This document shows, one piece after another, positions 566 to 60,013 of a DNA stretch of 64,000 nt (its first letter is position 1; every line of letters starts with the position of its first letter). Source of the stretch: Apostichopus japonicus. Taxonomy: Eukaryota > Echinodermata > Holothuroidea > Aspidochirotida > Stichopodidae. The position numbers and the translations under genes are program-made. The stretch covers positions 31,555,398 to 31,619,397 of the forward strand of contig NC_092577.1 of assembly GCF_037975245.1 (NCBI RefSeq), read 5' to 3'. Under the pieces are notes generated by a model. That model was not told the origin of the DNA. It saw only the letters and a list, made by a program, of their open reading frames with translations, and made no database searches.

Positions 566-635
566 AATATCATTGTCAACAAGATGGAAGGACGTTCTCC
601 ACCGGAGATAACTTCATCAGTCAGTGCAGACATTG
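566..635 (+). CDS. Exon 1 in window: first half of VWC-like motif
   Basis: The acceptor is TTTTCGCAG before 566 and the donor is GTAAGA at 636. The phase is 2 in and 2 out. It encodes [16 protein letters not shown] and then ISQCRHC with the next exon. The C-x3-DG-x-x-F-x-x-GD-x-F spacing is that of a von Willebrand factor C domain. A different frame here has a longer open reading frame, but it does not splice to the next exon in frame. Confidence 0.75.
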
Positions 636-3600
636 GTAAGACCACGCCCATTGTACACGATGAACTATTATCATTGGTCGAAGGGAGACGTGAGGGGGAG
701 GAGCATCGTTAGGGGAGGGAGGATGAAATTGGAAGCATTTTGTAATGGGTTATCGGTGCAATCTAGAAACGAAAAGAGAATTTGAGACCAGTCATGATCA
801 AATTTCTCTCTACTTCTTGATTCAATCACAGCGTATGCCTAATGGGCACCGTTCTGTGCAGCGATGTCCTCATCGAGGGGTGTGATGTAGACGCCACGCA
901 GGCACCAACCACACCTGCCATGGGTAAGCTTTCACATTTTGAAGAGCATCAGTACATCAGAGTACTGAATCATTTTGTAGCTATCATTTCGTATCGGGAA
1001 GTTTAATATAGCATTGGGGTTTTTTTATATTTTTTTTTACCTTCTCTCAAATTTGAAGAAGATTATGATAAATGAATAAATATATCCCTTATGTATTAAC
1101 TAATAGAAATGTAAAGGAACATTGCAGAGTGCCCGAAAGGCAAGGACCCTTATGAAGAATATCTTCTTGACCGGCTGATAATCCAAAAATCCAAAACTTT
1201 TACAGTATAATAATAATATTTGCTTTTTATATTGTGCTTTATACCAGCGATAGGTCTCAAAGCTCTTTACAGAAGTTATATTATCCCTGGTCAATGATAA
1301 CCTGTCCCAGAGACAATCCCTCCAGTCGGCAGCAGTTATATACTGCGCCCAATAACAAGTTACCTCTCAAGTACCCATTTAACCCCTGGGTGGAGAGAGG
1401 CAAGTGAGATAAAGCATCTTGCCCAAGGACACAATGTAATGAACTAGGCAGGTATCAAACCAGCAATCCCTGGATCACGAGTCCGTCGCCTTAGCCAATT
1501 GGCCACCACGCTCTCATAGCTTAATTTTAATATTGATTTTTGTTCTTCTTTGTATTCTTCTCCCCTTTCATGCAGATCCTTGTGATCTTCAGCCGTGCCT
1601 GAATGGCGGAACCTGCAGGTCGGGTCTCTTCTCGTTGTACGCATGCGTATGCCCTCCCGGATACGTAGGCGAGACCTGCAACATCCGCGTCCAGATCGAT
1701 CCCTGCAGGCCCTCCCCGTGCCTCAACGGCGGCACTTGCAGTCCCGACGGGAACTCCTTCACGTGTGCGTGCCCCGTACAATTCATCGGTGCCACCTGTG
1801 ACAGGGCTAACCTCTGCGTACCCTCGCCGTGTCTGAACGGGGGCTCGTGCGTTCTGACGGAGAGCGGATTCCCCATCTGTCTCTGTCTAGACGGATACTC
1901 GGGTGTCTTGTGCAACGTCCGCGAAGATCCCTGCCGTCCCGACCCTTGTCAGAATGAAGCCATCTGCCTGGATATCCCGGCCAACCAGAGGCCGTACCTC
2001 TGTGTCTGTCTGATGGGGTTCTTTGGCAACGAGTGCCAGCTTACGCGAAGTGTCTGCGAAAACCTCCCTTGCAGAAATGGCGGCACCTGTAACCAGTTTA
2101 TCTCTGATGGCATCCGCTTCTTCTCTTGCGATTGCCCTGACGGCTACACCGGTCCAACTTGTGAAGAAACCGGTAGGTTCTGCACCCCTTTAATCTACCT
2201 GTTCCTCTTGGGTCCATTGTTCGAAGCAAATGACAGTGGTTCAGCTTCCTTCGCCCTCAAAAATACCAATCAAACACTATCTTTGTATATGCATCAATTA
2301 ATCATTTTCAAACAGCCACATTATAAAGTTCATGCACACGTTTTCTGTTTTCTATTTATTTTTTTCTCTGCTTAGTTAGTTGATATACGACATTTTTCAC
2401 TAATGAACTGCACCGGGGGTTGTGAAACTTAAGTAACGTATCAATGAATCAATATTAAATTTTTGACAGCATGATTCACCACATATGTACTCTTAATGTT
2501 TCAGAGAGCGAAATCCCTGTTTAATAGTCTGTTTTGTTTTTAATATTTTATGTTGCCATAGAGATGATTACCCGGAAGAATATTCGGCAATTATCTGAAA
2601 TATGTCCGGCCAAAACAAATTTTGATAGCTGGCAATCCCTCCTCAGTTTGTTTTCACCGGTTAATTAGGTCATATTAATAAGTATTATCGTATTTCTTCT
2701 TAACATTTTCCCGGTACTTTTCACACTACATTAGTACGAATCACTTTTATGCAAAGAGCAAAAAAAAACATTTCAAAACTTTCACCTTTTCCTGCAATAT
2801 TTGCACAAACGTTTACCATTGCAAGAACGAAAGAGCTGTTTCCATGCTGGTTCCAGATTACTGCATGGAAAATTTGGAAATTCTTAGTAGAAGTATTACA
2901 TGGAATAAATAAAATGTTCATTGTGTATAAATGTGTGAATTTGGTGGAAGTTGACACACGATTGGACAATTTGCCACACAGTTCCGCTGGGTTTTCACAG
3001 ACGGAAAGTATGAAAAAGTCCTGAAGTACAGGCTAACACAAAGAGCTGCTGCCAGCCGTAGCAAGTAAATTGGTATTTTGAACAAAGCTACCAACCACCA
3101 CCAGCATGTTACTACCCCGAAAGACATTTTCTTCTCACTTCATCACTTGTTTCTAAAGCTACAGATGTTTCACACATTGTCACATTTATTTAGACAATCA
3201 TCAAAAGGGGTTTTAAATGTGTGTGATATTTGTGTGATATTTGTGTGAAATATGTGTGGAAAAAGGGTTTCAACACTTGTTTATCTATGGTTTCATTCTT
3301 AGATAATGACTTTGATCAAAATAAAATAAAACTGTTAGCAAAGTGCTTATCCACTAGAGAGCCTGTGTAGGAAAATGTGTAAAAGTAAGTTGGCCTGACG
3401 TTTTGATCCTAGCAGGATCTTCTTCAAAGGCTAAATGACAAGTAACAGTAACAGAAGGGACAAAAAACATGCACAGAATACAGACAGGTTAATAAGCGAG
3501 GTGAACACAAAGAGATAGATGTAAGGGGATTAATAGACAAGGGATGATCACAGGATTACACCTTGCAACAAATCCTATTTTGTTAATTTTTTATTTACCC

Positions 3601-6600
3601 CCTTATTTTTTTAGGTTGCGATAGATTTCAAAACAAAACCCATTGACCCCTTAAAAAACTGTCTGCTGAAAGATGAAAAGTTCGTTTTCAAAACTCTGGC
3701 CTGGTAAATCAGTTATATGATCGTGAGTTAGGACTGTAGAAACCATACAGCTAAAAGGTACGGCTATTACAATTTTCTCTCTTTTTCATTTTTTTTATAT
3801 GATACAGATGACCCCTGCAGTCCTGACAACGACCCTTGTGTGAATGGTGGTCTCTGCATTGCCATCTCAGACTCACAAAGCATATGCGTCTGTGGAATGA
3901 TGTACATGGGTCCAACTTGCGACACCCTAATCGACCCTTGCCTGTCACTGACCTGTTTGAACAGAGGTCGTTGCAGCGTGGAAGATGGCCTGGCTACCTG
4001 TGCCTGCGAAGAGGGTTTCTCTGGAACCAACTGCGAGATACTAGGTAAAACTATGTCTTCTCGATAGTTTGGGTGTTGGATTAAAGATTATAAGGGGAGG
4101 GTGGGGAGGGTGGGAAGGGGGGGGAATCCTATGTATCCTGATGTAGGCTGTGACACTTCCGCTAAAATCATACCCAGTTTAAAACCAGATCAGAACAAAA
4201 GGAATGGTCATCATTAGGTCATTGTTTAAGTACTTGTTTTGTCAGACGAATTCTGTTTCTTTTACTATAGACCTGTCAACTAATTTATTGAAAACGGTCT
4301 TGAGGCACGTAAACTCCAACGCTAGCAGTATTTTAAATACGTGCAGTGAAGTAGTTGAGATAAATATTTATTTTGTTTACATACCATGTCTTGTCACAAA
4401 GTATCCAGTTTTTCATTTTAATTTTTTTAATATTTTTTTTAATGTAAGAGTCATACCAATCAAGTGCTGAAATGATGATAATATCATCAAAAGGGAAAGA
4501 AAAAAAATCTGTTGGATAGCTGGACGTGCCTTTAATTTCAAATGTTACATAATAACGTTGATTCATTGATTCATCGATTTTTGTTTCCCTGTTTTTTGCT
4601 CGTCAGATTCCGTTTGTCAATTCAATCCTTGCTTCAACCAAGGGACTTGCGTTCCGGACAGTTCTGACCCTCGGGGCTACATCTGCGATTGCTTGGACAA
4701 CTATGAAGGAGACCGATGTCAGACGTTTACAACCAGTGAGAACCTCAGTCTTCTATCTTTGAATTGCTTTGAAAAAAAAGAACAAGAAAAAGGATCAGTT
4801 TCAGTTCATATCGGACAGTCTCAATTCACCCATTTGTTCATACTTTTTTTTAAATTAAAAATTTAAAAATTTAAAAAAAAAAAATTAAAAAAAAAATTAA
4901 TTAAAATTAGTTTTAACGTGTCTGTATTGAAGAAAGCAGAACCGCCAAAGGTGGATTTCGAAATATTATTGGAGTGACTAGAAAACACAAAAACACCAAA
5001 CACCAAAAAAAAAGACGTGGTAATATCGCTCTGTTGAAAAGAAGCTCTTCTTTGTGATCAAGGTAGAGAGAAGAAGCAGAAGTAGAAATTTTAAAACCAC
5101 ATCCTTAGTATTTAAACCATATCAAACGGACTACTCAAACCACTGCAAATAACGGTAAAAAAAAGGCAACCCCGGCCGGTTTTCTATGTTTACTTTGAGT
5201 TGACTCACCAAAACTGCAGGTTTTTTACGTCTCAACAAGATTCTTTTAGTTTGATTCATCCAGTTTGACTCTTAATTCGTTGTCTCAATCAAATCGGATC
5301 CATTTATTATTTATTTATTTGATTTTACAAAATTTCTATAGCGCCTTATCCAATCAGAAATTGCTCTAAGGCGCTTTACAGTAAAATACATACAAACATG
5401 ATATACAAATATATAAATCGTTAATGTAAGGTTATAAAAAGGGTTAGAAAATTTGTTATATACAATCTGACAATAAATTGTATAAAAACTGCAAATGGGA
5501 AATCGAAAATTATACATACAAATTCTTAAAATTTCGTAAAATTTAAATATATATAATCTCCTTGTTACCTTTGTCAGGTCCTTGTTTTCCGGATCCCTGC
5601 GGCGAGAACGGCTTCTGTGTCATCTCGAACGTCGACACGACGCAGGCCCTCTGCCTCTGTAGCTTCGGATACACCGGAAGGGTCTGCGATCAGCTCTCGG
5701 ACCCCTGTCAAGGTTCCCCTTGCCAAAACGGAGGTGCCTGCCTGCCGCTGGGAGACACTTTCTACTGTAACTGCACAGAGTCGTACATGGGAGAGAGGTG
5801 TGAAAGCAGAGGTATTCTATCCCTTTTGCTCTTTTGAGTACATTCCATAGATTTGCGATTCATATTTACAGGATGTATCTCCTGTTGCATGCATGCATGT
5901 GTATATTAAAGCAGACACTATTGAAATGCAATCCGATTTGGAATTGAATGCAATTTGCAAAAATTTGACTGGAATATGTAGTTTAATTGGATAGGATCCA
6001 TTTGACCTTGGACTGGATGCAATTCGATCGGATTGATCATTTGAATGCAGGTCATTGGATTCGTCGCAATTCGATTGAAATGGATGCAGTTTACTTGAAA
6101 AGCATCCGTTTGACCTTGGACTGGATGTACAGTAGTAATTCGATTCGATTGATCATTTGAATGCAGGTCATTGGATTCACTGCAATTTGATTGAAATGGA
6201 TGCAGGTGAAGTGGATATAGAAACCAATTTCCCATCGGGCTAGATAAAGCAATTCTATTTGATTTGATTCGACTGTAATCGATGTGAACTGTTTTCAGCT
6301 CTTTTGAATTGATTGCATCAGGTTCACTGGGGTTCCAAAGTCAGGGTTTATAGGGACACACATATGAACAATGATCAGGGTTTTTCCTAGTATTGTTTCA
6401 TGGGTTTGTATTACGTTTCTTGTAACGTTTTAAACTTGAAAACTTGAAAACGCAATCCTCTGTTTCCATTTTTCAGTCCAATGTGAACCCAACCCCTGCT
6501 TTAATGGAGGTACATGCCAGGAGGGAGATGCGGACACTTTCAGCTGTCTCTGCCCTCCGGGTTTGGCTGGCGACAGGTGTAACGTGTTGCCCACCCCCTG

Positions 6601-9600
6601 TTTCGGTGACCCGTGCGTCAACGGAGACTGCGTCCCCGTCCAGACAGGGTTCACCTGCATCTGCTACGACGGTTACACCGGGAACACATGCGAAGATAGA
6701 GGTATGTTAATTGAATTAAATTCAAGTTTATTAAAGTGCTGACTAATTTGAACCTGTCATTGGCTCGATATGGCAAAGGCGGATCGCCAGGTGGGTCCTG
6801 TAAGTCCACAGGACGTGCTACCCAAACCCTCCCTTTTCGTGTCGGTTGGATGAACTTTCAAAACTCAACGTCTGCACCCCCCTCTCAAGATAATTGCAAG
6901 TATTTGTCGGTAATATTGAGACGGCGTTTACCCAATTAAGGATATGAATATATGCATTTCTTTAGCCATGTCGTGTGACCCTCTCCAAGTGCTCGCAATG
7001 TTTGAACTCCCCGTTTAAACCACAGGATGTTTTGGTATCTAGAGTCAAACCCAAAGCAAGATGGTGGCGAGGGAAAGAATATGAAATTTTGAAAATTAAG
7101 AGAAATAACTTTGTACACACCTACAGGTACTGTACGTTCTAGACCGACCGTCTGCCAAAACTACAGCCCCCGAAAGTCACTGGCAGAATACCAACAGAGA
7201 TCCATCCAATTTTTTTTTTCTCAATTTGACGTCCATAGCCCAAGCTAGCAGGCATGAGCTTTTTCTGCGAATTCGCGGAATATCCGTGATTTCTTTTCTA
7301 CCTTGGGGCCAAAAACTATTATCCTAACACACTGTAGCATACGAAAACTGGAGCCTATACCGCAATTTTTGCAAAGTTCTGTGTTTTTTTTTTTACCCCA
7401 GGTTCATCCCTGAGCTAGCTTTCATGATTTCTGAGCTTCGATGGGGGGTGGGGGGGGGTCTGGTGGTATGGTAACTCTGTTCTCATGGACAATCCTGGGT
7501 TGTAGGAAAATTTGACTACGAGAAATGGAATCGAAAAAGCAAAGCATGTTATAGTCTTTCACATAATATTTTCTTTGAATTAACTTGCTTTCATCCCCCC
7601 CCCCTGCCTTTTTTTTCTCTCCTTGTCATCGTTCAGACGAGTGTACCTGCCCAGAAGATATCTCCATTCCCTCTCTGCCCGGTTCATCATTCTACCAAGT
7701 TTTCTGGGACGTCCCTGATTGCAGCGGCTACCAAGTTTCTTCAAGTTTCCAATCTGGAAGTTACTTCACCCTCGGAAGGAGTATCGTCAATGTCACCTTC
7801 ACCTCCGGAAGTGATGTGGTGGGGAGCTGTTCGTTTAACATCTTCGTAGAAAGTGGTAAGGCAGATTCTCACCACCATAAACATGGTTGTAGCTATGCAT
7901 CCCGCGAAAGTGTCCATTAGCTATAAGGGTTGCATCCAAAAACCTGCCGTTTGTATTGAACGGCAGGTTTCTTTCCAGTTGGTTAACCAAGTGATCAGTC
8001 CCATGTTTTCGCACCTTAGTTGAGCTGCCTATTCGTCTATTATGCAACTCATCACACAGCTAGTAGCCAAATCACTATCAGATCAAGGCAGACAGACATG
8101 GCAAGGTGTGAACAAATCAACTCTTCCAAACTCACCAGTCTGTTTGCAGGAGAGATAAAGATTCAGTAAGTTGAGGTCAAGAGAGCTGAAAAATGCAACC
8201 TATGGTTTATGGACTAATTCTCGTCATGAGTGGGCAATCGGTTTATAGCATAGCATCTGATTGTGTCTTTTTTTATTTTATAAGATTCTGGGTAGCATGA
8301 ATACAGCTAAACATACAGTATTCCTGTTTATAGTACTATTGTTCAATGTGCGGTTTCTATTGTATTTTCTATTGCGCCTTGAAAAGAACTGTGCAAAAGT
8401 GCTTATAACACAGACCTCTGCAATCGCTAGTGTTACAGTTCTAATGAATTTGATTAGTAGTAACAATAACTCCACCAACTGTATGCCTTTTGATAATCAC
8501 ACACCCGGGCCAACAGAGGACATTTTCCCACGCCTCTCTGTTTATAGAAATTGGTTGAAATATACTGCGTATTGACATTGGTCAGGGTAATTCCCTGACA
8601 ACATATCCTGTCAATTCATAAATCAATCACCCATGCATGTCATGATAATAGTCACGCGGGAGATTCTAACCACGGTTCTATACGGAGTTGAGAGAAAGGT
8701 TACCACCGGTTAAAACGATAGGGTAATCGTTTGTACGCGATATTCTTTAGGTTTCCATATCAAGTTCATGAGGGTGTGCCTCTTAGAAGAGTAATTATGT
8801 GGTTACAAATCTCAGAAAAAACAATGACAGTCATAGAGGTTGGGTAGTTCATTGATAGGCGTCTACAAAGTTTCCAGCACAGAATTTCTTGTTTTTGAAT
8901 ATTTTTTGGGGGGTTTCGGCAGAGGATAAACAAGGGTCATGTTTGCATTACTGCAAGCTAGCCATTTTATTGTTGTGTATGATTTCATCGACTCTTGGCA
9001 ATAGGGTAATCGTTTGTACGCGATATTCTTTAGGTTTCCATATCAAGTTCATGAGGGTGTGCCTCATAGAAGAGTAATTATGTGGTTACAAATCTCAGAA
9101 AAAAACAACGACAGTCATAGAGGTTGAGTAGTTCATGGATAGGCGTCTACAAACTTTCCAGCACACAATTTCCTTTTTTTTAAATATTTTTTGGGGGGTT
9201 TCGGCAGAGGATAAACAAGGGTCATGTTTGCATTACTGCAAGCGAGCCATTTTATTGTTGTGTGTGATTTCATCGACTCTTGGCAATATCATTCAGTTAT
9301 AATATATTGTATGCATGTATGTATGTGTGTATGTATGTATGTATATTAGATCCTCCTGCAAGCAGGAACTCGCGAAGAAGCCTCATTGGATTATCAAATA
9401 ATAATAATATAATAAATGAGACTTATATAGCGCCAAATCAGTAGACAAAAGTCACTTTGTAAAGCTCAAGGCGCTTTACAAAGAAAGCAAACTAAATCAA
9501 AGCAGCAAGCTGACCGAAGTCAGTCTGTTAGATTCATATTTAACGTCCATGATTATGAATTGTCAATTGTCAGCAACTCTGTAACCGTACGACATACATT

Positions 9601-12600
9601 AAACTTAGAGTGACTATAACCGGGGACCTTATGCTTGGAAGGCACCGGCGTTAACCACTGAGCTAACACTCCTGGACACTGTGGAAACTGGACACTGTGG
9701 AAGGGTTAAGTTAAGTTCATAGTATGGATAAGACCATGCAATCTGCAAAATAGATTATATCAGACCTCTAGTTGTTTCATAGCATTTTGAGGAGTTATTC
9801 ACTGATAATGACTCGTTCACATTAACTTACAGATGTGGCTGTAGACCCATGTGGATCCAACCCATGCCAGAATGGAGGTCAGTGTACTGAGCTACAGGGT
9901 AACAATTACCTCTGCTCATGTCCTGATACTCACACAGGGAGAAACTGTTCTGTTCCTGTATTAACAAGTGAGTATCAAATTGTTTGGAAATAATTAAAAT
10001 CCTGATTGAGCTGGGTAAAGAATTTAATGTTCCAGGATGGATGGGGAAGAGGCGTTTCGGGAGGTAATAAGCAGAGAAAGGAAGGTGGTGTGAAGATAGA
10101 GGCCAAGGGAGTCTTGAAAATGCTGAGCTAGAGAGAGGGAGTGGTTAAAATATATATATGTTGATCTGCAAAAGTGGGGGGGGGAGGAAAAATGAGCAAT
10201 AACATAGGCTTGTTGATAACGTTTCATCGATATTCTATTTCTCCAGGGCCTTGCGATGCATCACCATGTTTGAACGATGGGTTCTGCCTCAACATGCCGG
10301 GTACCCCCTTGGGTTACTTGTGTTTCTGCCGGTCCGATTACATTGGCGCCCGATGCGAGATCCCCAACGACGGCTGCGCACAGAGTCCGTGCGAGAACGG
10401 TGGCACCTGCAGCCCGGAAGCTGAGGGTGCCTACAGCTGCGATTGCGCACCGGGATACGGAGGTGTAGACTGTAGCGAGCCACTTGCTTGCTTCCAGGAA
10501 CCGTGTCAGAATGAGGGCACATGCGTCGAATTCCCGTCCAGTGTATATCTCTGCTTGTGCCAACAGGGGTACATCGGACAGGACTGCCAGGTGCGAGACA
10601 GGTGCGGATCGTCCCCCTGTGAAAATGGAGCGACCTGCATGAATGGCGACTCTGATTACACCTGCTCTTGTCCCGATGGGTATTCGGGAAGGACGTGCGA
10701 AGGTGAGACGGAAGGACGTCTGTGAATCTTAACAGTCACGGCAGCAGTTTGGTCTCGTATTGGGGGATTTTGAGGGGTTAGGGATATGATGAATGTATCA
10801 GGGCAGTAAGATATGTACTAAGAAAGTGGCAAAACCAGCTTATGAACAAGGGTCAAAACTTTCACAGAATTGAAGAGCGCATGTTCCACTGTACCTCTGC
10901 CTTCCCCCCCCCCCCGACCCCTCCGCTCCCATCTCTGTGGCGCAATGTTCTCGACAAAATCGTCATAAATCCCATTGTAGTGAAATATCTAACCATTTCA
11001 CTTTCTTTGTTCGCAGTCAACGACAATGAGTGTGTGCTGGAGTGTCCCGAAGACATCTTAAGGACTGTGGAACCTCCCATCAGCTTTCTGTCAGTAGAGT
11101 GGGAATATCAAGAGACCATCTGTGACCTCCAGGTGATGTTCACGTTCCTCCCCGGCAGTCAATTCCCAGTCGGCCAAACCACAGTGCGAGGCGCCATACA
11201 GGGCCCGATCATATCGAGGGAGTGCTCCTTTACCGTCACTGTACAGCAAGGTACGTTTCTACGTGTTCTGCTGATATGGTACCACCTCGAATCGGTTCCC
11301 AACGAACCGTCGAAATGGTGATATCTGCCCAGTTTAAATTACCATCTTAGTGGACTATCCTCTGAAGAGCCAAAAAAAAATGATATTATTCACTCCGAAA
11401 AAGAAAAATGTTCATGAATTATTTTTTTACTACCGAATGTAAAGGAGTATTTGTTTACAACAAATTTTTAGAGAATGATGGATGTGGACTTTGTTTTAAC
11501 AGAAAAATTTGACCTTTGACCTGCAAAATAGACCTTCAAAACAATCAATATTGAAATAGAAGTGACCAGTGAGAAGTTAGATTTATAAAAATTGATTTCA
11601 AAGATTAAATATACTTCCAGAGCAACAAGTTTCATATCTCGGTCTAAATATCTCTTTTAGCATAATGTAGCATTAAAATCGCTACAAAATGGTGGGGAAA
11701 ATCTGCCAATACTTTTTTGATAAAGTTTAGAGTTTTGTGTGTAGCGAGAACTATATTGAATAGGTAAGAAAATTCTGTGGTGAAAACATTTGCTAAACAA
11801 ATGGTGCTGTGGCCGAGTAGATAAAGGCGGTGGCATTTGCAGCAATGAGGCTTTTTAGCAATTGGGAGGTTCCGGGTTTGATACTTGGCCGGGTCGTAGT
11901 AAGGTTGGTTTTTTCATCCAAAAGCAATCTACGGTTTTCCCATCTGAAATAATTTCTTAAAATTGAACAGATTCCAAATTTGAGTTCAAATGTTGGATTG
12001 GAAGCCACCCAACGTGTAAGTCGTAATCCATAAGCGTAAGTATGTCGTCCAGTTACAGAGTTGTTGACAATTAACAATTCATAATCATGGACGTTAAATA
12101 TGAATGTAAGAGACTGACTTCGGTCAGCTTGCGGCTTTGATAAGCCAATGCGGCTTCTTCGCGAGTTCCTGCTTGCAGGAGGATCTAATATACATACATA
12201 CATACATAAGCCCTTGCTGGTTTCTCCCACATTTGTGGTTCGCTTAAGCCTCGTTAAAATAACTGCTGATTATTATGATTATTATTATTATTATTATCAT
12301 GATTATTAAACAACCTTTCTGTGTGTTAAGCAATTTGACCATTCTGCAAAAGCAGCATGTTTGTGAAAGCGATTAAAGATTCAAAGATAGATGACGTTTT
12401 CATGAATGCAGCTTGTTGGAATTATTCGATTGCCTTTGACACTGGGTCAAACTGTGGAAACAGTATGAAATCAAACTACTGTGATGTCATTACGATTTTT
12501 ATATGTTTCGTGTTTTTTTGTTCCTCCCCCCCCCCCATCCCTCTTCTTAACTTTCTCAGATCCCTGTCTCTCAGAGACTTGCAGCGGTAACGGTGATTGC

Positions 12601-14192
12601 TTTACTCTGACTTCCGAAATTTTTGTATGTCTGTGCGATCCGGGATATACAGGTGATAGGTGTCAGGAGTTATTTAACCCTGGTGAGTTTAGAACGTGAC
12701 AAAATGAGTTTCAAGCAAGAGAGCGTTAAATAATATATCGTGGTATAATATACTGTACCCTTGCAATATTAATTTATGTATATGACGGTATGGGATATGT
12801 GTCCTTTGGCAGTGTGGCTCTAAATGTGTATCGTTTATCAGTCTTTAGTGTGGTAAGCCATGTGTGCACTGGTGTTACCACATTAAAAAGTCTCGGTTGA
12901 GTAGAACAGTAGTACCCTACAACCAATCGCATAGCAGATTAATCACGAAGGCATGTAAGCAAGGCGACCTGTACGGAAGGTACACATACAACAAGTAGCG
13001 GGTTAAAGGGTGTCTCGGTTCCTTAGCAACGCAAGTGTCCTTGTCCATGTTGTGATACAAGTGAATGCCATACGCGGCCATCTTGAAAGGCTCAGACTTA
13101 AGACATTCGAATCAGTAACCAGAGTCCAAGGTCCAAAACAAGCCAGTACTCTGTCCATTGCAAAAGAGAGTAACTCTCAGACGTCAAACTTAGAGCGATT
13201 ATTCATGAAATTTTACGATAGTGGTAATAAATAACACTTTAGTACTACTATTTACAGAGCAGGTCACATGACCCTCTGTGGTACCTTGCTTACTTTGTAT
13301 AGTGAGATGTCCAGATTTATATATGTCGAGGGAGCTTGTTCCAAAGCTGCTACTTTCACACAAGATGCATCTTAACTACACAACTTATGAATATGTAGTT
13401 AACAGAAGAATGACCTTCCTCACACTATTGATATTACATTATATATGGCATGCTCTATAAAAAGGTGAACCAGCCATTTTATTAGGGGTGCCCAATTATT
13501 TTTGAAGCCGCCAGGTATGATGTATTTTCTAAAAAGAACATTATGACAGATATTTGAGGGAGGGGGGGGGGAGGAACCCTAGGTCAGCTGTTACACCTTC
13601 CTCCCCTCCCAGGGTGACTCAACCAAGGTGAACCTACCCATCCGGGTAACAATTGGTTAACAACAATGATTTTATTTACCCATACATTTAATCTTTCATC
13701 GATTGTTTTTACAAACCAGGAACCGGCTCTCAGTGTCTCTCCGAACCTTGTCAAAATGGAGCCACGTGTTTCGATGTCAGTGCCAACTACACATGTCTGT
13801 GTTCGACCGGTTACACTGGGAGGAATTGTAACGAACTAGAACCAATAGGTGAGTTTAGATGTATCAATAGTTTAAAACTTGAAACTGATGACAGTGAACA
13901 AAAAACCAAAGCAAGCAAAGTACTGTTTTGCATAATTAGGGGAAAAAAAGAGTATAATATACAGCAATCGTCGATGGATATTTCTGGTAAAGCTTTAGCA
14001 TTACTTTTTATTATTCCTACTATCGTCAGTTGAAAATGTCAGTAATAAAAGCCTCCTTGTACACTGGATGAGAGCAATGGTCTGAATAATGTTAGGCTCA
14101 CGACCCAGGATCTCCCATCGGAACTGAGCCGATGGAGACTAACCAGACCCTGCCCCCCTCCCCCACCCCACCCACCCCATATATATATATAC

Positions 14193-14264
<72 letters not shown>

Positions 14265-17200
14265 TTGAGCGATCATCAGACAACAGTTAGCTTCAAGTTA
14301 TGCTCCAGGAATATATAGGCTCATCGTCGGGATTACCGGGGGTTATAGGGTTGTTGGTGTATTGTTTCCTGTCGGTGTATGCTCTTTTGCGTCCGTTATG
14401 TTGGTGGGGTTTTTAACCTTTCTTCGGTGTTCTCTCCTTTGACGGTGTTCAGTTGGCAGGAGGGTTATCTGTTGGTGGTTGGGCTGGAGTTGTTTATGTG
14501 GAACTTGTTTTCATGTTTTTTTTTTATTAGTTATGAACGACTTCACTACCAAATTTTAAATCCATATTTCAATATGTTGCAGATCCCTGCGAAGATCGTC
14601 CATGCGAAAACCAAGGTACTTGCGTGGTACTCTCGCTGACCGCAGGGTCGTACATTTGTCTATGCGTACAAGGATTCACTGGTTCAAACTGCGAGGCCGA
14701 TACCATGGGTGAGTAAAAATCTTAAATTATAAATAAATAAAAAATTGTAAAGACTTTATAATATCAAAATCATTGATATGAGCTGTAAATAATGATGGTG
14801 AATATAGGTAAGAGTTTTTATTCTGCTAGGTAAAACTATAATTAGACATCAACAGTTGCTTTGTATCCAATACTGAGTTCCCACAAATTTAATATACTGC
14901 TTCATGTATTGGTACCACAAGGTTGTAGCAAACAACACACCATTAACAGCCTTAAGAAAACGGACGGTTGCATGTGTTGTGTTCATATCTTATAAACGGC
15001 ACTGTTCCCTTCACAGCACTATAAGAATTTCTTTTTCAAGAGTTGGTATAAAACCTTGAATCACTGGTTTTGACGTCTATTTTAGTAGCTGCTTTATATT
15101 TATAGCGCCCAAGAGTTTAAATTTCCTTGCCAGGATTGAAAGATACTGGAGCACACGAGCACAAGCTCTTCACGATTGGGTACTGTCGCATTAAGAGTGA
15201 TAAGTCCGATTTAAATGGTAGCAGATGCTATACTGATAACAACTGCAGAACGTTCTATTTATAAGCATACTGCCTTTTTGCATATCAAAAATTTCGGAAC
15301 TGAAGTCGTCGATGTAGAATTAACTGATGGTCAACCCTTATTGACTGAGTAGGAAATTATCAACTGTGAGAAAAGAATAGTTGACAATGTTTTGTGTGAA
15401 ATAATATGGTTTTCATAACTCTTTAAGAAGTGAAACTTCAAAAACGGCTTTCAAAAACGCTGTGATTTTTTTCCATCCGCAGTGGATGTCACTCCACCAA
15501 GGGTCGACTTTTGCCCGGAACTAGATGACCAGTATGTCCTGGCTCAGCGAGGAGGAGCCAATGTAATCTGGCCGGAGCCGAGTGCGGTGGACGATTCCGG
15601 TTCTGTTTTCGTCGCCTCTCAGACCCACAGATCGGGCGATTTCTTCCCGCTTGGCACAGCTCTGGTCATCTATCAGTTTAACGATACATCAGGGAACTCT
15701 GCCTACTGTTTATTCATCGTATCTGTGCTCGGTAGGTTCACCTCGATACTGGATATTCGTTCACTAAAATGTATCTATATATATATACATATCAATAAAA
15801 AAATATAAGCATAGTAATTTCACCAAAAGAAAATGGAAGCTTTGTAGTTGTTGTTACTGTTAGGGACAGCTTCTTTTTATTCTTTTATACGTTTATTCCG
15901 GGTGGGTTGACTTTATTCCGTCTACCACTTATAAACAGCTCTTTGAGTTAGAAATTTGCTCAATATTTCAATACTTAAGTCAGTATAGTAAAAATCCCAT
16001 AAACATTGTAATTCAACTGTGTCGTTTGTTTACATAGTCAAGTTTCTATTTTCTATATTTTTCCAGTAAAATTTGCTTTACACGTGTTTTGTGTAAGCCT
16101 GGATTGCCCCATTTTGGATCACATCTCCAGTAATTCTGTTTATACCGAAAATCATTGTGTCTATTTACACAGCCAGTGAACCTCGACTTGATAACGATTT
16201 TGTGCTTTCAGTCACACTTTTTGGATTTTCAAACTCTCGTTTTGTTTTGCAGTCGAGAACTCGCCTCCGGTCTGTTCTCCCGAGTGCCCAGAGGACATAG
16301 ATGTCGTAACTGACTCGGATCTTGATTTCACCAGAGTCTTCTGGAACGAGTTATACAGATCGTGTAACTACACGGTCTCCTCCTCTCACGAGTCTGGAAA
16401 CTTCTTCCTGACCGGAACAGAGACGGTCAGTCTGGAGTTCAGAGAGGGCAGGGAACTGGTGTCCTCGTGTACCTTTGAAGTCACGGTTACTAGAGGTATG
16501 AAAACCGATTTACTACCGCCGCCCGATACCGTGGTACTAACTGCGACGTAAATTGCAGGATCTTACATGAATCAGATCGAGGCCGCACTCTACTTGCCTT
16601 TGTTTATCCAGTCGAATAGATATTTACTTAGACTGCCATTGCCTGCTGCTGCGCATATCTCTCCGTTTATCTCGTCACGCATTGCGAGAATTCAAGAACC
16701 ATTCTCTCGTCGGTATGCTTGAATGAGCTGATAAAATCATTTACGAGGCTCTTGAACAAAACCATGTCTGCCACTACTGGCTCTTGAGTTTTTTGTCCAC
16801 GTGGCAATTTGTAATCTCTCAAGCGTTATGTTGACCTCACCCTGAAAGTGGTTACAGACGAAATTAGGTACAGCAGAGGTTGTGAATCTCCAGTAGACAA
16901 CTTTGAACAAGTAGACAACTTTGTAGACAACAGTAGACAACTTTGAACAAACTTTACTCTTACACAAAATCATCTTCTAGAAATTTAGTATGTTTGTTCG
17001 TCGGTGTAAAATTATGCAGAAATTGTGAATATAACTCGGCGTTGTATTAAAAGAAATGTCTTACCCAGTTTTATATCACACGTACCATTCTGTTATTCGT
17101 CACCATTTAACATTTCTGTAATGAGTTTTTTTATCCATTTTTCTCTAAACGAGACAATTAAAACTATTTGACTGTTATTTTATTTTTCGACATTTTATTC

Positions 17201-20200
17201 GGCAGGTTTCCGAACATTCTGTAGCAGCAGTCCCTGTCAGAACTTGGGAACCTGTCAGGATTTGAGGGACAGGTATGAGTGCATCTGTCCGCGAGGATTC
17301 GCGGGCGCCAACTGTGAGAACCTTATTAGCGGTGAGTACCGTCCCTTTAACATGTTCCTCAGAGATGGAGTGAGTACCGTCCCTTTAACATGTTCCTTAG
17401 AGATGGTCGGCTTGCTGGCGCAGCGAGAAAAGGGACACACGGCTGTTCCTGAGTAGTTATTGCTTTGAACTCAGGATGGATGAGTATGTTGGAAAATGTA
17501 TGCTTCCCCCTCCCCTCCCTTCCCCTCCCCCCACTACAAAGATGTGTTTTTTTTTATGTTTACTCTTTACTATCAAACAGTACCGTTATGTGCTGAGCAT
17601 GTTGGAAAATTAATGCTTCTCAACTCCCTCCCCCCCCACTACCAAGATGTGTTTTTTATTATGTTTACTCTTTACTATCAAACAGTACTGTTATGCGCAT
17701 AGGAGCATCGAAAAAACTTTTTTTCTGGTGCGTGGCCAGGACTTAAAGAGAACCATCGTTCGTCAGAAATCCTGCAGAGTTTGATACCTGTGCATCGGGG
17801 ATTGAGCTTTTAATTTTTTTTACAATGCAGGTTTCTTTAACGACCAAATTAAGTTCCCTTATTAATTCTTCTGTTTTACTGTCTTTCGATCTTCAGTGGA
17901 CACCGTGGCTCCCGTGATCACCTTCTGTCCCATGGATGTGTCAACTATGACACTAAACGGGGATACTTCTGTCCCCGTCATCTGGAGGATGCCGCAAGCG
18001 CTGGATAACTCGGGTACAGTCGTCGTGTCCGACCAGACCCATTACTCTGGGGACGATTTCGCCGTAGGCGTGACCACTGTCCTGTACGAGTTCTGCGATC
18101 CCCATGGAAACAAAGCCATGTGCCAGTTTAGGGTTGTTGTCGATAGTACGTATACTATTTTTATTTTTTTTTTTTAAGTTTTTTTTTATCCCTCTTTGCT
18201 TTCTGAATTTTTGGGTAGAATTTCCTGTCACGTTTTTATTTTTTTTAATAAAACGTTCACTTCCTTTCTTCTGCATAAAGGTTTATCTAAATTTTTGCTC
18301 TTCATAGTTTTGACAATTTTTTTTTTGTTTTTTTGTTTTGGTACTTTCATAACTTTAAAAATTAAATCAGAGCTTAATTTTTGCCACAAAATATTAGAAA
18401 ATTTCAAAAACTTTATTGTCCTTTATTGGTATAAATATTTTACAGATCCGGAAGAATGTAATATCAGGTGTCCATCCGATATCGTGACCTCTGCCGAAGT
18501 GGGTGTGGAGTTTGTTCAGGTCAGGTGGGAACAGCCCAGTACCATGTGCAGTTACATCGTCTCCTCCTCCCCGCTGCCGGGAAGCTTTTTCGTGACGGGC
18601 CCGACACCCGTCACCGTCATGCTACTGAACAATTCCGGAGCTGTGGCGGACCAGTGTTCATTCACGGTGGACGTCAGGAGCGGTAAGTAGTATAAATCCA
18701 GTAGTAGCGCCGACTTCAAAGCGAAAATGAATATGAATATGAATCATTTGAATATGAATAAAAAGTCAGTAAGAATATGAATAAAAATATGAATATGAAT
18801 AAAAATATGAATATGAATAAAAATAGTGAGTAAGAATATGAAAAAAAAATAAGAATATGAATAAAAAAAAAATATATATAAATAAATAAATAAAAAAAAT
18901 AAAAAAAATATATAAGAATATGAATAAAAAAAGTGAGTAAGAATATGAATAAAAATATGAATATGAATAAAAAAAGTGAGTAAGAATATGAATATAAATA
19001 TGAAAAAAAATTTGAATATGAATAAAAAGTGAGTAAGAAATGGAATCATAACTTTGATAAGAACCGGATTAATTTGATGTGAGATATATTGGATCCAGTG
19101 CGTGTTAAGTGCGTTCCTAGAGAAAAGAATATATGCTTGCATGGACTTGTAGACTTGGCTTGCAGAGGAGGGTACAAAAACTGCTTATTTTTTCCAACAC
19201 TTTCTGTTCACCTCGAAGGAGACATTTTCCTGTCGCTACACCCCTATGATTTAGTCATTTATACCTCTGCCGTAGGTTTGAGATAAGAATAGGTTTTTTT
19301 TTTATCTCTTTTGTATTAAGTGCTGCAGCGATATTCTTTGGTCATCTTAGATTGCTGCCTATAGAAAACCAGTCCTTCTCTAATCACTCAAGCATTTAAC
19401 AATTTATAACTTGATAGCATAAACTACCCCAAAATACTAGGGGCATTAACTAGGGCATAAACTACCCCAAAGTTAGGATTCATCTTTGAGTCTACCTAAC
19501 GAATTGACCAGTCACCTTTATGACTGCAAATACAAGTACTCTAATAGCCAGCACTATACTTTCCTGTGTGTGAAGACAAGTTTGGCTTGACCACTGAAAT
19601 AATACACCGTGTCTTTCATCATGAATTTGTGCAGAGGAGTGTTCAGTATGGCTAGCACTACCAACTCAGGTAGATATTCAATCTCCCTGTTTTAGGCCCA
19701 AAAACACGGTACTCCGGGTGGTATATTTGCTATAGGCAGGGAAGATCGTAATGGAGAAACCATGCTAACGTTAGGGTAGTGTCTAAAATTTCATTGCATC
19801 AAATCGAAGTTATCGGTCCCATGGTTCGCTTAACAGCAGAGAGGAATATAAATGATCAATGAGAGATCCGTTTGAAAATGTTTTTGTACTTATTTTTTAA
19901 ATTTTTTAAAATTTTTTTATTTCACGTAGTTGTGACCTTCGATCCTTGCCTCGATCCTAACGTCTGCGGCACCGGGCAATGTATCGTGGATTCAGCCAGT
20001 ACGGACGGCTTCAGGTGCGAATGCACCCGCTGCTACATCGGAGAGTACTGCCAGAGAGGTGAGTCGACAATTAGACACACATGTCACGGCACATGTCGAG
20101 ACACATGTCAAGGAGGGAAGGAGGAACCTTTAATAAACTGAAGAAAGCTATGCGTAGCTCCCTACGTATACTAAACAATTAAGAAACACGATTTAAGTTA

Positions 20201-23200
20201 TATAAGAATGAAAATCAATATAATACCAACGTGTGTCAACATTTCTCTATCTAATTACAGCACTGCCAGTCGCGAATCCATGTTCCTCTGGAGCCAACCT
20301 TTGCCAGAATGGAGCCACGTGTAGTTTTACTGATTGTGAATTCGTCTGTACGTGCACCGATCAATATACCGGAATGTACTGCGACAGTAAGTGTTTACCT
20401 TGGTTTGTTTTATTTTCATAAATCCACTGACACCCGACCTGGGAGCATATCTCGTAGGTAGCTCGGGAAACAGACATGGAAAAGGATGCTTTCTTGTACC
20501 GGTTTCAGAATGGAACGGTCGCTATATTATCCCCCAGAATGTAAATAATCTGTATCATTTCATTTATTAAGTTTGACAGACACATGACCGGTCAAGACTG
20601 CCTGTAGAAAGACCAGTCCTCCTCAGATGCACTCGACCATTAATAATTTGTTACTTGACAGCATAAACTACCCCAAATTATGCCCATTAGGATTCATCCT
20701 TGAGCGTGCTCCCTGATTAATTGACCAGCCACCTGTATGATTGTAAATTAACACAAGTGCTCTAATGGCCAGTGCTACTTTCCTGTGTGTGAAGACAACT
20801 TTGGCTGGCACACTGAAATAATACACTGCGTGTTCAATCATGAATTTGTGCAGAGGAGCGTTGTCAGTATGTATGGCTAGCATTAGCAACTCTGGTACAC
20901 ACGTCATTAAATTACATTTCCGATCGTATCTTTCTTCAGTCGAGAGAGTACAAATTGACACCGTAGCCCCGACAATCATCGGCTGTCCAGTCGACATAAC
21001 CCGCACGGTCAACGCCGAAGCGGAGGAGGCAGTGGTCATGTGGGACAGAATCAGATATATCGACCAATCGGGAACGGCATACTTTGTGCATTCGTCGCAT
21101 CGGTCTGGCGATTCCTTCCCGTTGGGTCTGACTACGGTCACGTCGATCTACAGCGACGCATCAATGAACTTTGCCTACTGCAACTTCAATGTCATCGTAC
21201 GGCAAGGTGAGAGCCAGCTGCATGCTGCCAGCAGTCAATTATTAAAACAACCATGTGCTGATCTTATTGAAAAATTCATAATTCTCAAGTCCTAACCCCC
21301 CCACCCCCTCCTCTCCCTCAAAATGTTGTTGTTAGAAAAGTTGTGTTTTGTCTATACACGTGCATGATAGATGGGCGGGCCGGGAGGAAGGGGGAGGGGT
21401 GGGGAGGGAGGGGGAGTGGATGGGAGATACAATGTTGCCATGGCAATAAGATTTGTGTCACTTGGGAGGGAGGGAGGGAGGGAGGGAGGGAGGGAGGGAG
21501 GGAGGGAGGGAGGGAGGGAGGGAGGGAGGGAGGGAGGGAGGGAGGGAGGGAGGGAGGGAGGGAGGGAGGGAGGGAGGGAGGGAGGGAGGGAGGGAGGGAG
21601 GGAGGGAGGGAGGGAGGGAGGGAGGGAGGGAGGGAGGGAGGGAGGGAGGGAGGGAGGGAGGGAGGGAGGGAGGGAGGGAGGGAGGGAGGGAGGGAGGGAG
21701 GGAGGGAGGGAGGGAGGGAGGGAGGGAGGGAGGGAGGGAGGGAGGGAGGGAGGGAGGGAGGGAGGGAGGGAGGGAGGGAGGGAGGGAGGGAGGGAGGGAG
21801 GGAGGGAGGGAGGGAGGGAGGGAGGGAGGGAGGGAGGGAGGGAGGGACAATGTTGCCATGGCAATAAGATTTGTATCACTTTGGAGAAAGAGACTTCTAC
21901 ATGATCCTGTATTAGTTTACAACAACTCTGTGATTCAATGATGTATATAAGTAGGTTTTTTATTTCTTTTTTTTTCCCTTGTTTTTTTGTCTCTCTTAAG
22001 TCGGAGTCATGTGCGATACAAACATCTGTCCAGAGGATATCATGCAGTTCAACACCGGTAATCTTAAATTCATGGAAGTATTTTGGAATCAAGTGGACGA
22101 GGTCTGCAATCTCAGGGTGGAGTCCAGGCCGCAGACGGGGGATCTGTTTCCGATCGGCGTAACCCGGGTTACCTGGATGATGTACGATAGCGACAACTCC
22201 CCCCAATCCGGCTGTGTCTTCACCGTGACCGTAACCGATGATTGTAAGAAAATTTAAAAAAACAAAAATTTCTGTTTTTTGTTGTTTCAGTTCGAAATGT
22301 GGCATGAAATATGATTGAAATAACTACATTTCAAAAATCTGCTTTTCTGATTTTATTATATCAGGGTTCTAGGTTTCAAGTGAGTTTATCTGCCCATAAT
22401 GTCTATTTGCTGGCCCACTTTTGTGCGTGTGTCTGATATGTCCGCATTTTGGTTTTTAGTCCACCTCGGAAGATGATCCTGCTAGGATCAAAACTGTTTG
22501 TACCTGAGTTGTGTTCTTGTCTTCATATCGTCAAAGTCCAAGATGGAGACCTTCTGCTTTGGTTTGATTTTAAAATCAGTTGACTAGCACTATAATAATA
22601 ATAATAAGTAATATTTATATAGCGCATAATCAGCAAAGCTGCTCAAAGTGCTTTACAAGTAGTATAGAACCAATAAGGCATAAAATGTAAAATCCTAAAG
22701 CAACAATATAAAAAACACCCGTACTAAACGATAATAAAAAATATATATATAAAAATAAACCTGAACACATATAGTCCAAAACAAATTCAAAAGTATGTCA
22801 ATAGTTTAAAAAAAAATGCGCAAAAGATTAAATCATAGAAATATGATGTTCTACTATACACACAGGTCATAATAGATTCATTCCAATTCTGTTTTCAATT
22901 TAAATTTGAAAAGCACTGCATCAGGCAAGCTTTTGTTGTTTGTTTCCATGGTAACTATTTGATTATGTTTCCAAAGTAACTTTTAATTATAACTGAATGC
23001 AGCATCATGCATGCACCACCCACTGCAATTACTGGTTTCTAGCTATCAATAGTAAATTATGTTTGAATAAAAACTGTAAATGATATAAAAAACAATTGAT
23101 GTTCAAGGCGGTTTCTTCTCTCCTTTCTCACTCTCTCATCATAGTCACAAATGTCTGCTTCAGAGAACCGTGTGAATCAGGCCAGTGTCGCCCTAATCCC

Positions 23201-26200
23201 AACCAGCTTGATGGATATGAATGCATCTGTTCGGCTGACTCACCAGACTGTACTGATGTAGGATTTCTTATTGGTAAGTCATTTCCAATGGATGGAAACA
23301 GGCTGTGACTGTACATCTTGTCGAAATCCTCCACATTTTGTACCCCCTCCCCCTACCCCCCAACGGTTCACACAGTCCCAAAGTTGGAGGGCCACCTGAT
23401 GACATTAGCAGGGATGCCAGAATACCGGCAATAGCCGGAATTCTGCCTTTTTCCCGATTTTGAAATTTGGTTCCGGCTCTTCACGATCTTTCCGTCCCAG
23501 TTGAAACAGGCATGAGCTTTTTCCGCGAATTTCTAATTATTATCCTAACACACTGTAGCATATGCAAATTGGAGCCTATACAGCAATTTTTTCTCTGGGT
23601 TTTCATAAAGTTTCCAGCATTAGCTTAGATAGTCTTTGGGACATCCAAGTCCCCACAACTTTCAGGCCCTAGTATTTAACTGCTGCCGACTGGAGGGATT
23701 GTCTCTGGGACATATTATCATTGACCAGGGGAAATATAACGTCTGTAAAGAGCTTTGACACCTATTGCTGGTGTAAAGCCCTATATGAAAATCAAATATT
23801 AAATATTATTATTAAAATTCTCTTTTCCTTTTTAAAAAATTTTTCAATCTAGGAGGGGAAGACGTACAGGCTCCTACAGTGTTGTCCTGCAGCAATCTTA
23901 TCCACTTCGTGGAGAAGGGCAACACTTACCTCGAGCTAACGTGGACGGCTCCCAGAGCCATCGACAACGCCGGGTCAGTCTTCACGCAGGCTTCTCACAG
24001 CCCGCCGTACAACTTCACCCTCGGAGTTACCGAGATAGAGTACAACTTCACCGACACCACCGGCAATCTGGCCAGGTGCGCTCTGAACGTCACCATCGAG
24101 GAGAGTAAGTGCCGTTTTTTTTTTATATTGTACTCAGCCGTCTCTCGATTCCGATTTTCCGCATTAGATCGTCTCTGCTGTTGTTGTTCTACCGGAATTA
24201 ATTATGTTTGTATGTAGGTATTTTAGATCCTCCTGCAAGCAGGAACTCGCGAAGAAGCCATCATTGGCTTATGGAAACCGTAAGCTGCCCAAAGTCAGTC
24301 TCTTACATTCATATTTAATGTCCATGATTAACTGTAACTCTGTAACTGGACGACATACATTAATCTTGGAGTGACTCGAATCGGGGGACCTTATGGTTGG
24401 AAGGCACTGGCGTTAACCACTGAGCTAACACTCCATGCCACAATTAAAGTGCATACATGATGCAGCCATGCCAAGAGGTAGCCCATCGACCATATTTGCT
24501 GGCATCCTGCAGCCTGGTATTAAACCCCGTGGAGACAACCACACATATACATCCGACATACAGAAATATTGACGACGAAAAACAATCCATAGAAAAGTGT
24601 CCCGTACATTCCGTACATATAACACGTATATTGGGCTACGACCTAAACAGTCGGAAATTTCTTCAACCTGGTTTTCAAAAGTGTGAAAAGATGGCCAAAA
24701 TTTAGCATCTAATCACCACCCGGCTTCCAGTTAACCAAGATTTATAACCCCGGTGCCCCCTCCATTATGCCACTCACATAATTCCCCCTGTCGTCATTTT
24801 CTAGGCGATCCACCTTAGCAAAGATGTCGGTCCCTGTGGTAAAATGTCCAAATGCTAAATATTCATATGATAATTGATATGGTGATTGATAGGCCTTCCA
24901 CTGCAGACTGCCCTCACTTAGAAAATCTCCCAAACAATCCCCACCCCCCCCACGCCCTCCCGGTATGTGTCCGAAGGTTTGTACTACAAAAGACGGTTCC
25001 TGCAGTCGGCATTCTAACACTGTGATACCAGGCAGCTGATTTGTGATGTGCTATTCTACCATCACAGATGATTTTATCGATCGTATCATATGTCTATGTG
25101 CTTCTTCTATAGTCGAGGATTCCGATCACCCTCTTTTTGATTTTTACATAAAACCACGTAGATTTTACACGATCCTACGTATGCGGACAGAACGGTTTAG
25201 GCGATCATTTTTACCTAGAAGTATTAAAACTTTGAATTGCATGATACATAGATAACTTTTTTAACCTATTTTTAAGATGCTCTAGTCCATTTTATTATAT
25301 TGTCATATTTTGATGAATATCAATAAATTTTACTTTACTTTACTTTACTTTACTTTACTTACTTTACTTTACTTTACTTTACTTTACTTTACTTTACTTT
25401 ACTTTACTTTACTTTACTTTACTTTACTTTACTTTACTTTACTTTACTTTACTTTACTTTACTTTACTTTACTTTACTTTACTTTACTTTACTTTACTTT
25501 ACTTTACTTTACTTTACTTTACTTTACTTTACTTTACTTTACTTTACTTTACTTTACTTTACTTTACTTTACTTTACTTAATAGTAAATCGTACTTCTAT
25601 TAATAATTTTGACAGTGTAGGCAGAAACTAACATTACCTGATTAACGATCTACATCATTCGTTAATATTTCGCGGTACCTCTGATTGTCATTTTTAACAT
25701 CATCAAGACCACGGACACCGGCCTGTTAGAATTCCTTTGAAACGCTTTGTTGCACTAGTGGGTATACTGCATATGTCGAGTATGTTGGACGATAAAGTCA
25801 AAGTTATCAGTTCAATGGGCTGCAACTCAGGTCCAGTCACAACTCTACGATACTGCTTGTAATCTAGCACAATTTATCGCCGTGTGCTAGAAGTAAAATA
25901 ACGTCAACGCTAACAACATAATGGCATATTTGGCTATGTTTCCGTAGTTAATTATCCGTAGTTTGACCATATGGGATGATCCACTATTTGAAAGGAAAGG
26001 GAGAGGCCTTCATGCATAGTTACACGATCTCTATGGTGTCCAACAAATTCACTTAAAATGTGACTTTTAGACCGATATGGAAGTTGTTTTTTGTTTTTTG
26101 TTTTTTTTATTGCAAAGGGCAGTTTTACATGAGAACTTTGCCAGTTGGTGATTGGCGAACAGTGGATAATATCGCCGGCAGACGTTGAAGGAAAAAACAA

Positions 26201-58600: not shown

Positions 58601-60013
58601 GTCGCTCTTATTAGAAACTTTCTTTACATTACAGTAGGGCTTGGAGTGGGCTAAATTGAGTATTGATATACCCTTGTGCAATTTTCAAAACATGACCTGG
58701 AATGTTCCTGCCCGGGTCACGATAATTAAAAGCCTCCTTACCCACATAGCCGCTTTCACGTTGACATCAATAGTCCTATGGAGCAGCTTATCCGGCGTGT
58801 CCAATAATGTCGTCCCATTCACGACTCCTGCGTTGTTCACCAAAATCGTGACGTCACCGACATCCTTTGTTACGTCAGCAGCGGCCTTGTACACGTCCTC
58901 ACTACTCGCAACGTTGACTTTATACGCAAACGCTTTCCCGCCTAAAGAGGTACACTCTTCAGCTACTGCTTTGGCTCCATCCACATTGATATCCCACAAG
59001 ACCACTGTGGCGCCTCTCTTGGTAAACTCGAGGGCGTACAGCCTACCAAATCCGCACGCTCCCCCTGTGATCAATACTATTTCATTACTAACGTCCTTCT
59101 TTGTGCGCAGAAAGCTTGGTATGCAAAAGACAACCAGAGAGACCAGGCTGTAATAAGTAATCTTGACCAGAAGCCAAAGAAACTGTACAACGAAGACGAC
59201 ACCACTACAGGAATAGGGGCAAATAAGTGGACAAAATAAAAAAGAAAATGAATAGTGGCTATGATCTCGAAGGGGTCAACTTATTATTGGACATGGCATC
59301 GCATATCAAATATGAAATTAAAATTCACAAATACTTTCCAAGGAATCATTTCTGCACGAATATACACATGCGCCCCTCCATAGGCGTAGGAGCCCAATTT
59401 GATTTGGGGGGCTGTAACGACTTGCCCGAAAAATATAACCAAAATTTTTCGCGCGCGTGCTTGCAACATCTTAAGGTGCATTTCATATAGGCATGCATCG
59501 GTTATTACATCGCATGCCAATAACATACAATCATATGCCGTGTTTTTACCCCTTTCATATTGGTTATAATTATTGGGGAAGTCGTTACAATAATAACGAT
59601 AATAATATAAGTTTAACCATTGAAAAACACATTGCAATTTATTTTTCTTTCGGTAGGTGCCCGAATAATTCTCAGCATATTGCCCGAATTTTCACAAAAA
59701 TATTTGGTTGGGGGCTGCAGCCCCCAGCCCCCCGCCTCCTACGCGTATGCGCCAGCATACGGGTCCCTTCGCTGTCGAGTGTGAATGAAAAGTGAAACCA
59801 CAAATGGCTTGTTCCATCTGTGTGAGAGATTCTTGCTTATAACACACACAGGGGATACAGTTAGTTTATATCATATTCATCGGTACAATATATATCTCAA
59901 CATATCTTAACATATATATTGATATATATATATATAGGCATATATATATATATATATTTATTTATTTATATATATATATATATTTTATATATATATATAT
60001 ATATTTATTTATA

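Follow-up and report, generated by a model that had tools for sequence, protein, structure and literature searches.

In a stretch of 64,000 nt of the Apostichopus japonicus genome (GCF_037975245.1, contig NC_092577.1, positions 31,555,398 to 31,619,397; in the following called the window), we delineated a multi-exon gene on the plus strand whose product appears to be a large mosaic animal protein of EGF-like and HYR (hyalin-repeat) modules. A local profile scan of all six frames found ten HYR domains interrupting the EGF-like modules, five ordinary ones (H1 to H5) and five with four cysteines (4C1 to 4C5). We consider it probable that the latter are HYR modules that gained a second disulfide between the entering linker and the central loop, together with a shortened loop, and that are thereby rigidly attached to the preceding module, three of them forming stiff double modules with an ordinary HYR domain. 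The HYR module is an Ig-like beta-sandwich.

Five HYR domains carry a second cysteine pair

The five copies lie at 7637..7855 (4C1), 11017..11250 (4C2), 16253..16495 (4C3), 18446..18682 (4C4) and 22001..22243 (4C5), all on the plus strand. Each is a single open exon of 73–81 residues, bounded by an AG acceptor and a GT donor in phase 1-1. By reading, all five share the motifs C-x(1-4)-C-P-x-D-I, V-x-W, G-[SND]-x-F-x-x-G and C-x-F-x-[VI], and the third, central cysteine is always followed by Tyr or Leu within three residues. The cysteine codons start at 7642, 7648, 7720 and 7828 in 4C1, at 11031, 11043, 11121 and 11223 in 4C2, at 16273, 16285, 16363 and 16468 in 4C3, at 18457, 18469, 18547 and 18655 in 4C4 and at 22012, 22027, 22105 and 22213 in 4C5. 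The gaps from 4C1 to 4C5 are 2/24/36, 4/26/34, 4/26/35, 4/26/36 and 5/26/36, a nearly fixed spacing of C-x(1-4)-C, 24 or 26 residues on to the third cysteine and 34–36 to the fourth.

With open single exons, shared motifs and near-fixed spacing in five of five cases, the domains described in an earlier note on this DNA are real, and the second cysteine pair is present in all of them. Two details needed correction. The final C-x-F-x-V given there for all copies is found in four, 4C1 ending in C-x-F-x-I. Likewise, the central D-x-SG segment was said to be lost throughout, but 4C1 keeps it as D-C-S-G, with the central cysteine at the position of x, so that the loss concerns four of the five copies, although all five are shortened.

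This shortening is visible in the core, which spans 63–65 residues in the four-cysteine copies versus 66–75 in the five ordinary ones. Counted from the CP cysteine, all five ordinary copies have a proline at −5, and no four-cysteine copy does; elsewhere in the linker, Pro-Pro occupies −7 and −6 in 4C3, and a Pro lies at −7 in 4C4. In leave-one-out profiles, which include the cysteines, the four-cysteine copies scored 56.2–71.4 bits against their own kind and 19.3–32.3 bits against the ordinary profile. The ordinary copies also scored higher against their own kind in five of five cases, and all ten domains were sorted correctly.

For a chance background we took 105 HYR domains without extra cysteines from the same genome, in which 13 cysteines occurred among 6679 residues between the standard cysteines. 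This set was picked for the absence of extra cysteines, and a probability calculated from it is a rough guide only. By this measure, the extra cysteines of the five copies appear to be beyond chance.

The copies belong to HYR and not to HYR_4C

Against the Pfam family HYR (PF02494; cut-off 21.7 bits), 4C1 to 4C5 score 24.8, 30.2, 27.5, 40.8 and 33.3 bits, in each case above the threshold and well below H1–H4 (56.1–71.5 bits). Recognition by this profile is part of what the earlier note had named as counting against its own proposal of a distinct subfamily. The CP cysteine and the C-x-F cysteine are present in all five copies, which also share V-x-W and G-x-x-F-x-x-G with the family, and differ from it by the second cysteine pair, the shorter central loop and the missing proline five residues before CP. 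The D-x-SG segment, common in HYR but not required, is absent from four of them and, scored by a loose pattern, also from 41 of the 130 other sampled domains of the same genome. Membership of the five copies in HYR is solid, whereas the status of a new family is not.

The low PF02494 scores would also fit a different reading, namely that there is no coherent subfamily and that the five copies are degenerate ordinary HYR domains which diverged and picked up cysteines. The best domain tree, described below, likewise leaves the five copies apart, its starred branches allowing one origin. However, their cysteine spacing is constant, their core motifs are intact and each copy scores far higher against the other four than against ordinary domains, in the leave-one-out profiles given above. 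We regard degeneration as very unlikely.

Another Pfam family, HYR_4C (PF23237), is described as an HYR-like domain with four cysteines, a description that our copies share. None of the five copies matched it (cut-off 27) at E up to 1, and on this profile score it was rejected as their family. Two of three real bacterial HYR domains scanned touched PF23237 below its cut-off. It is most improbable that the layout of the window copies is that of bacterial HYR domains or of HYR_4C, placed in an animal gene. Both of these have four cysteines, one of them in the central loop, and H1 as well as a second animal type introduced below (L032) touch PF23237 below its cut-off. Nevertheless, beyond the missing match, 139 of 174 sampled bacterial domains have a cysteine between CP and the V-x-W strand, which none of the five copies has, and only two of the 174 have a cysteine shortly before CP (in the following called pre-CP cysteine), neither of them together with the CP cysteine.

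The SURF module is about 140 residues long and contains four cysteines, and by this description it is longer than the 73–81 residues of our copies. SURF has been portrayed as an extracellular module of sea urchins called four-cysteine, which adjoins VWC in collagens and is also found in fibrosurfin (PMC2852846, PMC10817530).

Viral contigs queried with 4C3 yielded one pattern match and no relative, and phage records queried with 4C4 yielded no match. A sequence search of PDB with three HYR profiles turned up no solved structure containing a credible HYR chain; the low E-values in one of these searches belonged mostly to Pizza propeller designs, with 15–26 profile positions matched. A structural comparison of the predicted fold had no HYR entry among the matches listed, which excludes nothing. 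A full-text literature search returned, among the matches listed, no title or abstract start treating HYR cysteine layouts or disulfides. As a variant of HYR, the four-cysteine layout is new to the searches made, which covered no animal proteome.

Cysteine patterns in HYR domains of the same genome and of bacteria

The HYR family of this genome is very large, with 150 scored matches and 1534 first-look candidates in the 671.6 Mb assembly. Drawing on a family search and on queries with copies 3, 4 and 5, we took from it eight loci (3.2 kb each), 18 regions (10 kb each) around HYR matches with two flanks, another two regions of 10 kb, 60 short regions hand-picked from the matches to the three copies, and the window. 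This sample is biased both ways, toward canonical domains by the family search and toward domains resembling the four-cysteine copies by the queries. The bacterial sample consisted of 29 loci from one scan of genome contigs. From 418 aligned stretches, 29 without a needed column were dropped, and the remaining 389 were reduced to 314 non-redundant domains, 140 from the own genome (10 from the window) and 174 from bacteria. Loci are cited below by number.

In the own-genome set, 109 domains have the standard pair only, six have six cysteines including a central one, and ten have other patterns. The combination of pre-CP, CP, central and C-x-F cysteines occurs in eight, the five window copies and three of the L032 type. 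Seven more have pre-CP, central, late and C-x-F cysteines and no CP cysteine, one of them with a further cysteine. In bacteria, the commonest pattern (81 of 174) has four cysteines, the additional ones being the central cysteine and one between CP and the V-x-W strand. Just the standard pair is found in six bacterial domains, and 30 have the pair of pre-V-x-W and central cysteines alone. The statement that ordinary HYR has two cysteines, made in the earlier note, thus describes most of our own-genome sample and very little of the bacterial one.

The two standard cysteines usually go together: both are present in 130 own-genome domains, the C-x-F cysteine alone in eight (seven with the late cysteine) and neither in two; the bacterial numbers are 139, two and 33. 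Array copies without both standard cysteines were seen at L006 2237-2608, L012 8094-8465, L004 2742-3077 and L013 8850-9182, and the bacterial arrays L063 and L071 have many domains that lack the CP and C-x-F cysteines and keep a second pair. The six-cysteine layout (L019, L087, L099, L110, L113, L115) combines the central cysteine with another in the following loop and a C-x-C close to the end. On contigs labelled Spirochaetota (L051, L052) we observed two-cysteine HYR domains with D-x-SG, whose best segments share 56% and 52% identity with the animal query; they may stem from transfer or from animal DNA that entered the assembly.

The type named L032 above is represented by L032/L050, L038/L049 and the near copy L083. 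It has C-x4-C-P-A-D-I, a central cysteine and C-x-F in the same order as the window copies, but keeps a central D-N-P-C-G segment and normal length. At L049 and L050 (G000 C5, 18.108–18.128 Mb), exons that look SRCR-like by eye are followed by one four-cysteine HYR exon, with L083 at 18.143 Mb. In L050 the same reading frame continues through a stretch that resembles a transmembrane segment to a tail containing tyrosine motifs, for which a Pfam scan gave no match. We consider L049 and L050 a candidate SRCR-HYR receptor family.

A second layout, named here PPxCxxLP (L020, L021, L025, L028, L090), shares the pre-CP and central cysteines in seven of seven non-redundant domains. It differs in lacking the CP cysteine, in having a cysteine as in Y-T-C-T-D, and in keeping the linker proline and, in most cases, D-x-S. 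Its four cysteines (pre-CP, central, late and C-x-F) are hence another set than in the window copies. We regard the window layout as real, though as a modest variation on an extracellular module already known, with what seem to be similar staples elsewhere in the same genome.

Pairing of the extra cysteines

A pre-CP cysteine is accompanied by a central cysteine in 15 of 15 own-genome domains, while a central cysteine occurs in seven of the 125 domains without pre-CP cysteine. The nominal Fisher p of 3e-15 for this co-occurrence in the 140 domains overstates the case because the domains are related. The constant company of the two cysteines supports a second disulfide, a pairing that we infer from the co-occurrence.

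According to one report, HYR has an Ig-like fold (PMC3723904). The standard bond joins the CP cysteine to the C-x-F cysteine. In the mechanism we propose, the new bond would most likely connect the central cysteine, in the loop that follows the V-x-W strand, with the cysteine of the entering linker that lies 2–5 residues ahead of CP. The central loop is shortened, with D-x-SG gone in four of five copies. Since the new bond would take over holding the linker to the core, the domain would be locked rigidly to its predecessor in the chain. Of the five copies, three directly follow an ordinary HYR domain in the next exon (H1-4C3, H2-4C4, H3-4C5), 4C1 and 4C2 following EGF-like exons; these three neighbour pairs would be stiff two-module units, flanked by EGF modules, of a long secreted protein of the matrix or of adhesion. 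The position of the cysteines is what suggests this mechanical role.

Several observations weigh against this mechanism. The stretches with the two extra cysteines are the least certain part of a structure prediction for 4C3, with a mean predicted local distance difference test score (pLDDT) of 72 for residues 1–10 and 80 for residues 31–40. Seven own-genome domains have a central cysteine and no pre-CP cysteine; six of them belong to the six-cysteine layout, whose further cysteines could supply a partner, and for the seventh, in L106, no partner is evident, while the near copies L107 and L108 have Gly instead. In bacteria, the central cysteine and its supposed partner before the V-x-W strand occur together in 121 domains, singly in 18 and 28, and neither in seven (p 0.29), a weak linkage which implies that a central cysteine can do without a partner inside the same domain. 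The sampled domains are, moreover, not independent, being related.

Some of these points would also fit extra cysteines that cross-link a matrix by bonds between domains or chains, for instance to a second molecule or to the HYR or EGF module in front. The pre-CP cysteine sits in the linker beside the preceding module, H2 immediately before 4C4 has one odd cysteine, and in bacterial arrays the central cysteine often lacks a partner in its own domain (28 of 149). Yet the pre-CP cysteine of own-genome domains is never without a central cysteine in the same domain, and L049 and L050, whose neighbouring exons look SRCR-like by eye, are no exception. For 4C1, 4C2, 4C3 and 4C5 there is no odd cysteine in a preceding HYR domain. 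Cross-linking is therefore unlikely in our view, and a bond within the domain is preferred. Taken together, the own-genome and bacterial pair counts suggest that HYR uses the standard bond plus optional further cysteines, for which the central loop is a recurrent site.

Gain of the pair and loss of the central segment are separable

Ten of the 15 own-genome domains with the extra pair lie outside the window, in two layouts, and have normal length and a D-x-SG-like segment. Conversely, 11 short domains elsewhere lack both the segment and a pre-CP cysteine (ten with the standard pair only, one with six cysteines), as do 30 others whose length is normal; the segment was scored by a loose regular expression, and these counts are approximate. 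Because the pair occurs with the segment and the segment is missing from domains without the pair, gain of the one and loss of the other are separable and not a single event. The combination of the staple with a short loop was found in the five window copies and was absent from the other 130 own-genome domains sampled.

A tree of a smaller set of 123 domains was calculated from 63 columns after masking the cysteines and removing the central loop. Eight of its 120 inner branches were starred, and one starred group unites the three copies of the L032 type. In the best tree the window copies stay apart and require three changes (4.9 on average after shuffling, with none of 500 shuffles as low); the starred branches are compatible with a single origin. 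With one independent pair on starred branches and nine on the unsupported best tree, it is too poorly resolved to count gains, which also weighs against our reading, and we rejected it for this purpose.

What remains of the distinct, disulfide-stabilised subfamily put forward in the earlier note is that the copies resemble each other more than they do the ordinary ones and that a pre-CP cysteine came with a central one throughout the own-genome sample, while gain and loss as one event do not hold. The wider proposal, a lineage-specific HYR subfamily in which the linker-to-loop disulfide replaced the linker proline and D-x-SG, building rigid rods of HYR and four-cysteine HYR in a giant EGF/HYR matrix protein, appears doubtful.

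Architecture of the EGF/HYR gene

The gene occupies the first 26.6 kb of the window. We joined 23 exons by hand (1576..24104), all bounded by AG acceptors and GT donors in phase 1-1, and obtained 1697 residues with no stop; the splicing of this model is a prediction from the sequence. The exon numbers 8, 11, 16, 19 and 23 assigned earlier to the four-cysteine copies fit if two exons precede 1576.

Five EGF-like exons lie upstream of 4C1 (1576-2172, 3808-4044, 4607-4735, 5578-5811, 6477-6701). Pfam PF00008 matched seven stretches in the first 321 residues, the part that was scanned, and the remaining EGF-like modules were recognised by their cysteine pattern by eye. Among the HYR exons, EGF-like exons are found at 9833-9967, 10247-10702, 12560-12682, 13720-13848, 14583-14708, 17206-17331, 19930-20058, 20261-20386 and 23145-23273. 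The ordinary HYR domains lie at 15483..15731 (H1, 71.5 bits to PF02494), 17897..18145 (H2, 69.2 bits), 20940..21206 (H3, 64.5 bits), 23853..24104 (H4, 56.1 bits) and 26355..26638 (H5, 26.3 bits; start at 26355 or 26358). All have two cysteines except H2, which has the standard pair and the odd cysteine nine residues before its last one. A VWC-like module of two candidate exons joined by eye (566..922) reached 25.4 bits in Pfam, below the cut-off of 27.6. All these features are on the plus strand.

H5, the last exon seen, terminates in TAA at 26636-26638. No membrane stretch was recognised in it by eye, and the product is therefore probably secreted. Its module types suggest a function in matrix or adhesion; a role in cell adhesion has been supposed for HYR (PMC3091736).

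Upstream of the window, L009 holds a Cys-rich repeat (6829-7023 and 7923-8681; DPC, CP, CGGC, final C), which may be the N-terminal portion of the EGF/HYR gene; a Pfam scan of its second stretch gave no match. L009 also contains transposable-element reading frames that look reverse-transcriptase-like by eye (2162-3501). The intron between H3 and 4C5 harbours a long GGGA tandem repeat (21461-21850), and two short-chain dehydrogenase-like genes, recognised by eye, lie on the opposite strand at 57714-59275 and 34553-35902.

Implications for the HYR family

The comparison yields a testable map of cysteines in HYR. The standard bond would be gained and lost as a unit. In this genome the central-loop cysteine would probably pair with one ahead of CP; in bacteria its partner would, with less certainty, precede the V-x-W strand. 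Further cysteines occur in the six-cysteine forms. Among the 140 sampled domains of this genome, the putative staple together with a shortened loop is confined to the window copies.

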